64,000 nt of DNA from an uncultured Lachnospiraceae bacterium (GTDB lineage: Bacteria > Bacillota > Clostridia > Lachnospirales > Lachnospiraceae). This document shows positions 263-10,112 of the stretch, piece after piece. The position numbers and the translations under genes were made by a program. Position 1 is the first letter of the stretch. Each line of letters opens with the position of its first letter. The stretch spans positions 1 to 64,000 of the forward strand of contig CANQDS010000003.1 of assembly GCA_947593655.1 (NCBI GenBank), in the 5' to 3' direction. Below the pieces are notes generated by a model. It saw only the letters and a program-made list of their open reading frames with translations, was not told where the DNA came from and searched no databases.

Positions 263-934
263 ATGATAGAATTATATTATGCGGAGGACGATGCCAATAT
301 TGCAAATGTGGTAAAGGAATATCTGGAGCAAAAAGACATGAAAGTGCAGATATATCATACAATTTTAGAAATCAAACAGGCTTTGGAAAAGCATATGGCA
401 GCGGTTGTTCTGCTTGACTGGAATATGCCGGATGGTCATGGAGACAGCCTGTGCCAGTGGATTCGCAATCGTTGGAAGGAACTTCCGATCATTTTTCTTA
501 CTGTCCGCGGGGACAGTTCTGATATTGTTTCCGGATTTAAGAATGGAGCGGATGACTATGTGGTAAAGCCGTTTGCGTTAGAAGTATTGTATTCGAGGAT
601 TCTTGCAGTACTACGCAGAACCGGGAATGTAACAGAACAATACCTTTCCTGTGATGAGATTAAAATGGATCAAAACCGTCATGCCGTCTTTTGCCGTTCA
701 GAGGAAATCGCATTAAGCGAGGCTGAGTATCAGCTTTTATGGTATCTGATGCAAAACAAGGGAAAAACAGTTACCAGGGCAAAAATTTTAGAAAAGGTAT
801 GGGATGTGAATGGCAGTTATGTGAATGATAATACTTTGACTGTCACAATGAAACGCCTTCGGGACAAGCTTTCGCAGCCAACGTGCCTGAAAACGATCAG
901 AAGCGTGGGCTACCGCATGGAGGATACGATATGA
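263..934 (+). CDS. OmpR/PhoB-family response regulator
   Basis: N-terminal receiver domain (YYAEDDANI, VVLLDWNMPDGHG, VVKPF) and C-terminal winged-helix (TVTMKRLRDKL...IRSVGYRM). Confidence 0.95.
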   Translation: MIELYYAEDDANIANVVKEYLEQKDMKVQIYHTILEIKQALEKHMAAVVLLDWNMPDGHGDSLCQWIRNRWKELPIIFLTVRGDSSDIVSGFKNGADDYVVKPFALEVLYSRILAVLRRTGNVTEQYLSCDEIKMDQNRHAVFCRSEEIALSEAEYQLLWYLMQNKGKTVTRAKILEKVWDVNGSYVNDNTLTVTMKRLRDKLSQPTCLKTIRSVGYRMEDTI

Positions 935-6467: not shown

Positions 6468-8261
6468 ATGACAAACGAAGAATATAACAAGATTATTGCC
6501 GAAATTGAAACACTGCCAACAGGTGGTATTACTTATAAAAAGATAAATGGAAAAGAGTATGCTTATTATCAATGGCGTGAGGATGGAAAGCAACATACCA
6601 GAAGGACGAAGGATGAAGAGTTAGAACAGCTTTCTAAGCAAATCGAACGAAGGAAAGTACTTCAAAACTTAATAAAAAACATAGACAATCAGGAAAAAAA
6701 TGAAGAAAAGCCGGTTTTGCAGTTTCGATGCACAGTAAGAATTGGAGAGGATTTGGAGCGTTTTGTAAAACCAGTGGCAAAGTGGGTAAAACGTGAATGT
6801 TATCAGCAACTTCATGATTATGTTTATGGAGATATACATGATAGAGTGTATATTTTGTATGGTCTTAGGAGAACAGGTAAAACAACACTGATTCGTCAGT
6901 TAATATCTGAGATGGATGCATCAATGAGAAGTAAAGCAGTGTTCATTCAGATACAGGATAGCAAGACCTTGGATGATGTAAATCAGGATTTAAAGGTTTT
7001 GGAGGAAAAAGGTTATCGTTATGTGTTTATCGATGAGGTTACACTGTTGAATGATTTTATCGAAGGTGCAGCATTGTTTTCTGATGTATTTGCAGCAAGT
7101 GGAATGAAGATAGTACTTTCCGGTACTGATTCCTTAGGCTTTATGTTTACAGAAGATGAGGAGTTGTATGACAGGTGCATTATGTGTCATACAACATTTA
7201 TTCCATATCGTGAATTTGAGAGAGTGCTAGGAATTGTGGGTATTGATGATTTCATTCGATATGGCGGAACGATGAGCCTTGGTGGAAAGCAGTATAATGA
7301 CACTGCCATGATTTTTGCCACTAAGAAGAGTACCGACGAGTACATTGACAGTGCCATTGCGAGAAATATTCAGCATTCCTTAAAAAACTATAAGTATGAA
7401 GGTCATTTCCGTTCATTGCGGGATTTGTATGAGAAAAATGAATTAACCAACGCAATTAACAGAATTGTGGAGGATATGAACCATAGATTCACTATGGAGG
7501 TATTGACCAGAGATTTTAAATCAAATGATTTAAGAATTTCAGCAAGCAATTTGCGAAAAGATCGGGAAGAACCGACAGATATTCTCGATCGTATTGATAT
7601 TCTTAAAGTGAATGAAATGCTGAAATCTTTGCTGGAAATCAAGGATAAGGAAGAACAAAAGGTTGAAATCCAAGATGCACATCGTTACGAAATAAAAGAA
7701 TATTTGGATTTGCTTGACTTAACTGTGGAGATAGAAAGCAGATGGATGTCTGATTATAATCGAAGAGAATCCAGAACAGCATTTTCGCAGCCTGGTATGC
7801 GTTATTCCCAAGCAGAGGCACTTATCAAATCGCTTATGCAGGATGATATGTTTAGAGATCTATCCTTTGAAGAGCGAAAGAGAGTAACTGAAAGAATAAT
7901 CGATGAAATTAAAAACAGAATGATGGAGGATATTCTTCTTTTGGAGACAAAGCTTTCTAAAAAGAAATGTGAAGTGTTCCGCTTGCAGTTCGCGATTGGC
8001 GAATTCGATATGGTGGTGTTTAATCCGGATGAGGGCACTTGTGAAATCTATGAAATTAAGCATAGTAAAGAAGTTGTTCCCCAGCAGTGTAAGCATTTGT
8101 TAGATAAACAAAAATGCAAGGATACGGAATTTAGATACGGCACAATTACTGGAAAATATGTGATTTATCGTGGTGCCACAACATCCCTTGTTCAGGAAGG
8201 AGTGGAGACACAAGAAGATGTGATGTATCTGAATGTGGAAGAGTATTTGAAAAATTTATAG
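6468..8261 (+). CDS. AAA ATPase with PD-(D/E)XK-like C-terminus and DUF6788-like N-terminal segment
   Basis: Walker A GLRRTGKTT, Walker B YVFIDEV, sensor LSGTDS, C-terminal GEFDMVVFNPDEGTCEIYEIKHS; N-terminus LPTGGITYKKINGKEYAYYQWREDGKQ. Confidence 0.8.
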   Translation: MTNEEYNKIIAEIETLPTGGITYKKINGKEYAYYQWREDGKQHTRRTKDEELEQLSKQIERRKVLQNLIKNIDNQEKNEEKPVLQFRCTVRIGEDLERFVKPVAKWVKRECYQQLHDYVYGDIHDRVYILYGLRRTGKTTLIRQLISEMDASMRSKAVFIQIQDSKTLDDVNQDLKVLEEKGYRYVFIDEVTLLNDFIEGAALFSDVFAASGMKIVLSGTDSLGFMFTEDEELYDRCIMCHTTFIPYREFERVLGIVGIDDFIRYGGTMSLGGKQYNDTAMIFATKKSTDEYIDSAIARNIQHSLKNYKYEGHFRSLRDLYEKNELTNAINRIVEDMNHRFTMEVLTRDFKSNDLRISASNLRKDREEPTDILDRIDILKVNEMLKSLLEIKDKEEQKVEIQDAHRYEIKEYLDLLDLTVEIESRWMSDYNRRESRTAFSQPGMRYSQAEALIKSLMQDDMFRDLSFEERKRVTERIIDEIKNRMMEDILLLETKLSKKKCEVFRLQFAIGEFDMVVFNPDEGTCEIYEIKHSKEVVPQQCKHLLDKQKCKDTEFRYGTITGKYVIYRGATTSLVQEGVETQEDVMYLNVEEYLKNL

Positions 8262-8393
8262 AGTGTAGTTTGGATAAATGGAAAGGATGATGCAATGAGT
8301 AAAATATGATGAAGCGGCATTGATAAAGCTGATAGGTTTGCAACAGGAAATGATAGATTGGATAAAAGCGTATATTATTTGGCATGCTGAAAT

Positions 8394-8507
8394 CGCCTAA
8401 TACATATTTTTTCGCATAATTTGATAATACATTAGGCGGGAACTGGAAAAATATTGATTATCGCCTAAAGGAGTGGTATAATTAGGCGAAAAGAGAGGAA
8501 CTAGGCG
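8394..8507. promoter_or_regulatory. Array of five CGCCTAA/TTAGGCG sites in the promoter/leader of the Fic gene
   Basis: CGCCTAA 8394-8400, TTAGGCG 8432-8438, CGCCTAA 8462-8468, TTAGGCG 8482-8488, CTAGGCG 8501-8507; degenerate ttcgcataat at 8411. Promoter TTGATT (8454-8459) -17 bp- TATAAT (8477-8482). Confidence 0.85.
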
Positions 8508-8508
8508 A

Positions 8509-9558
8509 ATGCGGATTTTTAATTATGCTAATTTAAAAAATTACAGATGGGATTCGGAAATTCTTGGATTGGTAGCACAGATCCATGAGTTTAAAGGTAA
8601 ACAGGAATTATATCTTAAGCAGAAACCGGCCGCACTGGAAAAACTGATCGAGATAGCAAAAATACAAAGTACGGAGGCTTCCAATAAGATTGAAGGCATT
8701 GTTACGACAAGCACCAGGCTTCAGCAGCTTGTTATGGAAAAGACAACGCCAAGGAATAGAGATGAAGAAGAAATTATGGGGTATCGGGATGTTTTAAATA
8801 CGATCCATGAGAGCTATGAATATATCCCGATTCGTTCCTCTTATATTTTGCAGCTCCACCGGGATTTATATCAATATTCACAGAAGGATATCGGGGGAAG
8901 GTTTAAGAATACGCAGAATGTGATAGCTGAAAACCACCCGGATGGAACCCAGACAGTGCGATTTATCCCTTTGGTGCCTTATGAGACACCGGAGGCAATC
9001 GATTCCATCTGCAATAATTTCAATCAGGCAATCGATGCCTGCATCGTGGATCCGCTGGTATTAATTCCGATCTTCATCAATGATTTTCTGTGCATCCATC
9101 CATTCAATGATGGAAATGGCCGGATGTCCCGTCTGCTTACCACGCTTCTTTTATATCGGTGCGGATATGTTGTGGGGAGATATATCAGCTTGGAGAGTAA
9201 GATAGAAAAGACGAAAGAAAAATATTACGATGTATTGGAACAGTGCGGAAATGGCTGGCACGAGAATGAAAATGATCCGGCGCCATTTATAAAATATATA
9301 CTTGGGATTGTGCTGGCAGCTTATAGAGATTTTGAGACTCGAATTAGTCTAGTGGAGGATAAACTGCCCGCAATAGAAATGGTCAGAAAAGCAGTTTTTG
9401 AAAAAATCGGCAAATTTACGAAGAGTGAGATCATGGAACTTGTGCCGTCCCTGTCTAAGGCTTCCGTAGAAAATTCGTTGACACAGTTGATGAAAGACGG
9501 GGTTATTGACAGGCATGGAAAAGGAAAAGCGACATTCTATACAAGGGCAGATGTGTAG
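8509..9558 (+). CDS. Fic family protein with C-terminal winged-helix-like domain
   Basis: Fic motif HPFNDGNGRMSR, N-terminal inhibitory motif SNKIEG (class II), C-terminal GKFTKSEIMELVPSLSKASVENSLTQLMKDGVIDRHGKGKATFY. Confidence 0.93.
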   Translation: MRIFNYANLKNYRWDSEILGLVAQIHEFKGKQELYLKQKPAALEKLIEIAKIQSTEASNKIEGIVTTSTRLQQLVMEKTTPRNRDEEEIMGYRDVLNTIHESYEYIPIRSSYILQLHRDLYQYSQKDIGGRFKNTQNVIAENHPDGTQTVRFIPLVPYETPEAIDSICNNFNQAIDACIVDPLVLIPIFINDFLCIHPFNDGNGRMSRLLTTLLLYRCGYVVGRYISLESKIEKTKEKYYDVLEQCGNGWHENENDPAPFIKYILGIVLAAYRDFETRISLVEDKLPAIEMVRKAVFEKIGKFTKSEIMELVPSLSKASVENSLTQLMKDGVIDRHGKGKATFYTRADV

Positions 9559-9632: not shown

Positions 9633-10112
9633 ATGATAAAAATACTTTTCATCTGCCACGGCAACATCTGCCGTTCCCCCATGGCAGAATTTATTTTCAA
9701 AGACCTGACCGCAAAACGCGGCCTTTCCGGTCGCTTCCACATCGAATCCGCCGCCACGAGTTCCGAAGAACTCGGCAATCCGGTCTACCCGCCGGCGAAA
9801 GCGGAGCTTGCGAAGCACGGGATCAGCTGCAAAGGCAAAACGGCGCGGAGGATCCGCAGAGCGGATTACGAAGAATTTGACTACCTGATTGCGATGGAAG
9901 AATATAATATCCGCAATATGAAACGGGAATTTCCGCAGGATCCGAAGCACAAGATCTTCCGGCTTCTGGATTTCACGGATCAGCCGAAAGATATCGACGA
10001 TCCGTGGTATACGCGGCAGTTCGATCTTGCATACCGCGAGATTGAAACCGGTTGTGAAGCCCTGCTGGAATATCTCGGTTTTCCGGCGGAAGAAAGAAAG
10101 GAAAACGCATAA
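9633..10112 (+). CDS. Low-molecular-weight protein-tyrosine phosphatase
   Basis: CX5R loop CHGNICRSPMAEF and late DDPW. Confidence 0.95.
   Translation: MIKILFICHGNICRSPMAEFIFKDLTAKRGLSGRFHIESAATSSEELGNPVYPPAKAELAKHGISCKGKTARRIRRADYEEFDYLIAMEEYNIRNMKREFPQDPKHKIFRLLDFTDQPKDIDDPWYTRQFDLAYREIETGCEALLEYLGFPAEERKENA

Follow-up and report, generated by a model that had tools for sequence, protein, structure and literature searches.

Fic enzymes with DNA-binding domains

Helix-turn-helix (HTH) domains were noted on Fic enzymes in 2009, when HTH-Fic fusions were likened to autoregulated toxin-antitoxin operons (PMC2686095). CccR of Yersinia pseudotuberculosis, a class II Fic, binds its own promoter and represses it via an inverted repeat near the -35/-10 elements, for which the dimer is needed (PMC9755527); it is the one Fic-HTH enzyme for which our literature search found a specific operator. 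In Coxiella burnetii CbFic2, activity is regulated by DNA binding: (de)AMPylation is stimulated by DNA, a precedent for DNA influencing catalysis by a Fic enzyme, and the authors suggest that operator-induced CccR dimers might deAMPylate (PMC10628234). SoFic of Shewanella oneidensis is already listed as a defence gene. What is new here is the array of putative operator sites described below, the family spread widely across Gram-positive bacteria that shares its design, and the relationship between operator and DNA-reading helix.

The locus lies in a 64-kb stretch of DNA (the window) from an uncultured Lachnospiraceae bacterium, where a fic gene of 349 codons occupies positions 8509-9558 of the forward strand. 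Its product matches the Pfam Fic model (57.8 bits over cut-off) and carries the active-site motif HPFNDGNGRMSR at residues 197-208 (9097-9132), which conforms to the HPFx(D/E)GN(G/K)R signature with its downstream Arg. Across 35 homologues S207 is nearly invariant and the remaining residues of the motif are invariant. N-terminal to the Fic core lies an inhibitory helix of the (S/T)xxxE(G/N) type (S58-NKI-E62-G63; 8680-8697), in which S58, E62 and G63 are invariant in the same homologues. Both motifs are thus intact, and together they support the class II assignment made in the original prediction. The prediction had also proposed a winged-helix-like C-terminal domain, and such a domain is indeed present in the AlphaFold2 model (mean pLDDT 88.9, mostly 83-93 in this region) at residues 288-346 (9370-9546), with helices at 288-298, 305-311 and 317-329 and wing strands at 333-336 and 343-346; 23 of 35 members have a hit to the Pfam winged-helix family PF22168 (E<=0.1). 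The protein therefore has the C-terminal winged HTH of CccR-type Fic enzymes. In the model, the predicted recognition helix (residues 317-329; 9457-9495) is in the right place, and K317, A318, E321, N322 and T325 are its candidate specificity residues.

The array at the fic promoter and its conserved geometry

Short repeats are clustered immediately upstream of fic (8390-8510). The heptamer TTAGGCG occurs exactly four times in the window, at 8394(-), 8432(+), 8462(-) and 8482(+). This whole-window count is not elevated (shuffle mean, 7.7); however, all four copies fall within 95 bp (8394-8488), where about 0.011 would be expected. Allowing one mismatch adds 8412-8419(-) and 8501-8508(+), giving six 8-bp sites, which we regard as putative operator half-sites. 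The first (8393-8400, minus strand) is an exact TTAGGCGA, kept by near homologues at about -116; the second (8412-8419, minus), TTATGCGA, has one mismatch and is also found in near homologues. The third (8432-8439, plus), TTAGGCGG, has one mismatch in eight with the heptamer exact, while the fourth (8461-8468, minus) and fifth (8482-8489, plus) are again exact copies of TTAGGCGA. The sixth (8501-8508, plus), CTAGGCGA, has one mismatch and abuts the start codon; several relatives (L006, L008-L011, L015 and others) have TTAGGCGA at its position. A literature search for this word returned nothing relevant.

The original prediction counted five heptamers, four of which are exact; the copy at 8501 is CTAGGCG, with one mismatch, and ends one base short of the ATG at 8509, as had been stated. 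The degenerate copy placed at 8411 does exist, but as the in-register half-site 2, 19 bp from its neighbour, half-site 1. The orientations do not simply alternate, as had been described for the first four sites, the order of all six being -,-,+,-,+,+ (starts at 8393, 8412, 8432, 8461, 8482 and 8501). They are instead mirror-symmetric about 8450.5, half-site 2 being paired with 8482-8489, and the coordinates of each pair add up to the same value, give or take one base. At this centre 57.6% of base pairs are symmetric, compared with a mean of 27.2% (sd 6.3) at other centres.

The predicted promoter, TTGATT-17-TATAAT, was confirmed at 8454-8482 on the forward strand, with an extended -10 (TG), and homologues have the same promoter. 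As foreseen, one site falls in its spacer and one on the end of the -10: the inverted pair 8461-8489, hereafter the core dyad, has its arms 21 bp apart, the left arm inside the -35/-10 spacer and the right arm beginning at the last T of the -10. An inverted repeat at the -35/-10 region of its own promoter is accordingly present in the sequence, as in CccR.

The original prediction was open to refutation by a search for the motif upstream of related fic genes, and it survived one. Our sample comprised 131 dereplicated representatives (85% clusters) with 36-100% identity to the window Fic. Dinucleotide shuffles would give a dyad of 20-22 bp with >=8/9 matches in 9.6 of their promoters; it was found in 98 and is lacking in the other 33, and the enrichment persists in each identity band (57-100%, 45-57% and 30-45%). 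A spacing spectrum computed without presupposing any word or promoter gave peaks for inverted pairs at 22-24 (between 9-mer starts; 76-77 of 131 promoters vs 2-3 shuffled) and for direct repeats at 20 bp (45 of 131 vs 4), with a second direct-repeat peak at 53 (23 of 131 vs 2). These peaks indicate that many of the promoters contain a pair of modules separated by about five helical turns, with a two-turn dyad as the basis of each. Within the array, conservation is highest at the core dyad, and the upstream module has been lost in some near homologues (L007), suggesting that it may not be essential.

Homologues at 60-96% identity, which range from Lachnospiraceae to Enterococcus columbae, Aliicoccus persicus and Anaerococcus, carry TTAGGCGA at about -116(-), -97(-), -77(+), -67(-), -48(-), -27(+) and -8(+) from the ATG. 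Across the family the geometry is constant and the word varies: besides TTAGGCGA we found TTAAGGGA, TTGGGAGA, TTGGTCGA and TGATGCAGA, as well as TTAAGGGAA, TTGGGAGAA, TTAGGAGAA, TTGGTCGAA, TTGGACGAA, TTATGCGAA, TGACTAAAT, ATATGCAGA and others. Where one genome encodes two family members (L092/L232, L094/L233, L234/L235, L090/L237, L210/L245 and L211/L243), the two mostly carry different words (5 of these 6 pairs), a difference that would prevent cross-talk.

This layout bears on the sign of any regulation. The sites upstream of the -35 (8393-8439) are placed as those of an activator might be, and Fic could bind the array so as to switch its gene on. We consider this highly unlikely: the best-conserved pair occupies the spacer and the -10, where repressor sites are typically found, the promoter is already near consensus with its extended -10, and CccR represses from a comparable position.

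Co-variation of the operator word with the recognition helix

When the C-terminal ends of the homologues were sorted by operator word, a pattern in the recognition helix became evident: the word changes with residues 317-325 of the winged helix, as placed by the AlphaFold model. KASVEN or RASVEN is paired with TTAGGCGA, (I/V)SSIEG with TTAAGGGA, SSSVEA/S with TTGGGAGA, KTSIGN with TTGGTCGA, RSSVAA or RSSALAA with TTGGACGA, RQTIEK with ATAGGAGA and RTSVFN with TTGAACTCA. Among 125 sequences, E321 and G at motif position 5 are both present in 118 and both absent in 7, with 0 exceptions. A318 agrees with 'AG' at positions 3-4 in 117 of 125. Residue 322 follows position 6, N322 occurring with C6, G322 with G6, and A/S322 mostly with A6.

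Plain mutual information over all homologues was swamped by phylogeny, Fic-core columns scoring like the helix, and was set aside for a tree-based co-change test on a tree of residues 1-280 only, that is, without the winged helix. E321 and G5 each change 3 times on this tree, on the same 3 branches; A318 changes 10 times and 'AG' 14 times, 4 of these on the same branch. With weighting by changes per branch, all 349 columns are led by N322, and the winged HTH (residues 288-346) supplies 10 of the 20 highest-ranking ones (p 4e-4). Likewise, the best predictor of the word among 27 windows of 13 residues is 313-325, the next two also being in the winged HTH. Window 313-325 beats the 280-residue core in mean (0.535 vs 0.697); for the helix taken as 315-327, the difference from the whole core is not significant (p 0.43).

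These comparative data refute the idea that the array arose by chance or acts at the RNA level as a 5' leader structure, to which we give practically no credence. The inverted repeats could pair in RNA, but transcription is expected to start downstream of most sites, and chance is excluded by the conservation of the array and its co-variation with the protein. The word co-changes with the DNA-reading helix in more than 100 related genes, and the enzyme therefore very probably represses its own gene. Autoregulation through the C-terminal winged helix, as originally proposed, is strongly supported by the conserved geometry and by the match between word and helix. The array would then be the fic operator and the class II Fic protein its repressor, an explanation in which we have high confidence.

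Operator binding, dimer stoichiometry, the repressive sign and cooperativity are what we infer from these patterns, as follows. At the core dyad (8461-8489), two successive major grooves facing the same side of the DNA would each receive one C-terminal winged helix of a Fic dimer, which would thereby cover the spacer and the -10 and block RNA polymerase. To both sides, further dimers could follow at steps of 19-20 bp, including at 8501, and also at the mirror module 8393-8439, some 51 bp upstream. Such multi-dimer occupancy would yield steep, cooperative autorepression. Each homologue has its own half-site word, presumably read by residues 317, 318, 321, 322 and 325, with the geometry kept.

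Genomic context, coupling to AMPylation and known systems

The exact TTAGGCG dyad of this spacing occurs once in the genome of origin (87% complete), at fic, as does the one tandem site pair of that genome. Among 200 family genomes only two such dyads were found, both at a fic promoter, one of them in genome G078 (fic at C5:121870-122913). This rarity suggests that the Fic protein is dedicated to its own gene. The corresponding search for the TTAAGGGA dyad at gaps 12-14 gave no match and is uninformative, the needed gap being 15. The viral contigs form a very large collection; for 80 loci with a TTAGGCG dyad among them, tblastn detected no Fic gene, and most of the matches can be put down to chance. 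Two TTAGGCGA sites on contig 26 of the genome of origin, near a second Fic fragment, lie inside an ATPase coding sequence and were dismissed as chance. The fragment itself (L271, 3470-3942) is a short Fic stretch in a frame of 93-97 aa with an HTH-like C-terminal tail, and looks like the truncated remnant of another Fic family.

The fic gene is a solitary cassette without a conserved neighbour family. No conserved adjacent antitoxin gene was found among the homologues, which are most often flanked by prophage genes and by unrelated ATPases. We also rejected an operon with either the ATPase upstream or the phosphatase downstream, since the neighbours differ between homologues. The upstream gene in the window (6468-8261) encodes an AAA ATPase (PF13173), for which PADLOC gave weak candidate-defence hits (PDC-S01, 5e-11); a different set of ATPases, forming one blastp family that excludes it, adjoins fic in L013, L022, L030 and L057. 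Downstream, at 9633-10112, lies a low-molecular-weight phosphotyrosine phosphatase gene, which also follows fic at varying distance in L003 and L007, where the upstream genes differ; the fic/phosphatase region looks like an insertion hotspot. Several homologues adjoin a prophage terminase gene (L143, L145, L151, L153, L155, L167, L169 and L173); most of these sit between the terminase and portal genes, so that SoFic-like genes recur there as cargo. In one prophage (L286; IMG/VR 2642422560_000004, 717-770), a three-site TTAGGCGA array of fic-like geometry is located just downstream of the terminase; no fic is detectable beside it, although related prophages carry fic there, and this orphan operator is perhaps a deletion scar or a decoy.

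Control of fic by another host protein acting at these sites, whether a global regulator or one encoded nearby, is very improbable. Promoters are often under the control of other factors, and the gene upstream encodes an ATPase in which no DNA-binding domain is recognised. Yet fic keeps its array while flanked by unrelated genes in different genomes, the word goes with the recognition helix of Fic and not with the species, and the dyad is absent elsewhere in the genome, unlike the site of a global regulator.

It is plausible, by analogy with CbFic2, that AMPylation is coupled to operator binding, as the original prediction suggested. A stronger version makes the array chiefly an enzymatic ligand on which Fic assembles into oligomers with the inhibitory helix held in its active state or with deAMPylation prevailing, transcriptional control being secondary. 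CbFic2 dimers are induced, and their (de)AMPylation stimulated, by 20 bp DNA, an effect that the authors also suggest for CccR bound to its promoter (PMC10628234); moreover, five to six sites exceed the needs of simple repression. On the other hand, every clade places the sites on promoter elements, which a pure ligand would not need, and a single array cannot hold many molecules. We regard this version as unlikely. Somewhat less remote, though still improbable, is a combined role, in which the array would be both a transcriptional off switch and an allosteric antitoxin, bound Fic being held as an inactive or deAMPylating oligomer and freed when occupancy is lost. If so, a phage that degrades or outcompetes host DNA, for example, would free active Fic, and the system would amount to a toxin encoded by one gene and countered by a DNA antitoxin, its fast-changing operator word insulating it from relatives.

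With autorepression as the favoured reading, a whole family with readable operators would make the DNA targets of many Fic-wHTH proteins predictable from sequence, and the co-variation offers a specificity code testable with few point mutations. Cognate DNA would also make an operator-driven AMPylation/deAMPylation switch directly testable, since CbFic2 could be tried only with random DNA.

Among described systems, CccR resembles the window Fic in its class II inhibitory motif (S59/E63 in CccR), C-terminal HTH and -35/-10 inverted repeat, the two being compared by description. Its operator, AGATAATCAT-N26-ATGATAATCT, is a single pair 36 bp apart, whereas here an 8-bp word forms a 21-bp dyad within six sites; CccR is also a T6SS effector, and the window Fic gives no sign of such a role. 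CbFic2 (PDB 8cil) is likewise a class II Fic with a C-terminal winged helix and matches in fold, at about 19% identity in the fold alignment; it was assayed with random DNA, no operator being known for it (PMC10628234). SoFic (PDB 3eqx, 3zcn) matches in fold over the full length and is also a solitary gene, and residues 39-345 align with the PADLOC SoFic model (2e-39); the score against the NCBIfam SoFic equivalog is 65.6 bits, far below the cut-off of 550, and DNA binding is not shown for SoFic (PMC10628234). The closest solved relative is a Bordetella bronchiseptica Fic (PDB 8uqu; E 1e-89 over residues 12-343), which superimposes on the window Fic core with a TM of 0.93 and of which only the N-terminal domain is solved; we found no description of an operator in the literature on 8UQU. 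Finally, as in operons of the phd-doc type, expression of the toxin would be held down via an operator in its own promoter; unlike in those operons, the enzyme, the inhibitory helix and the DNA-binding domain are here combined in one polypeptide, without a partner gene.
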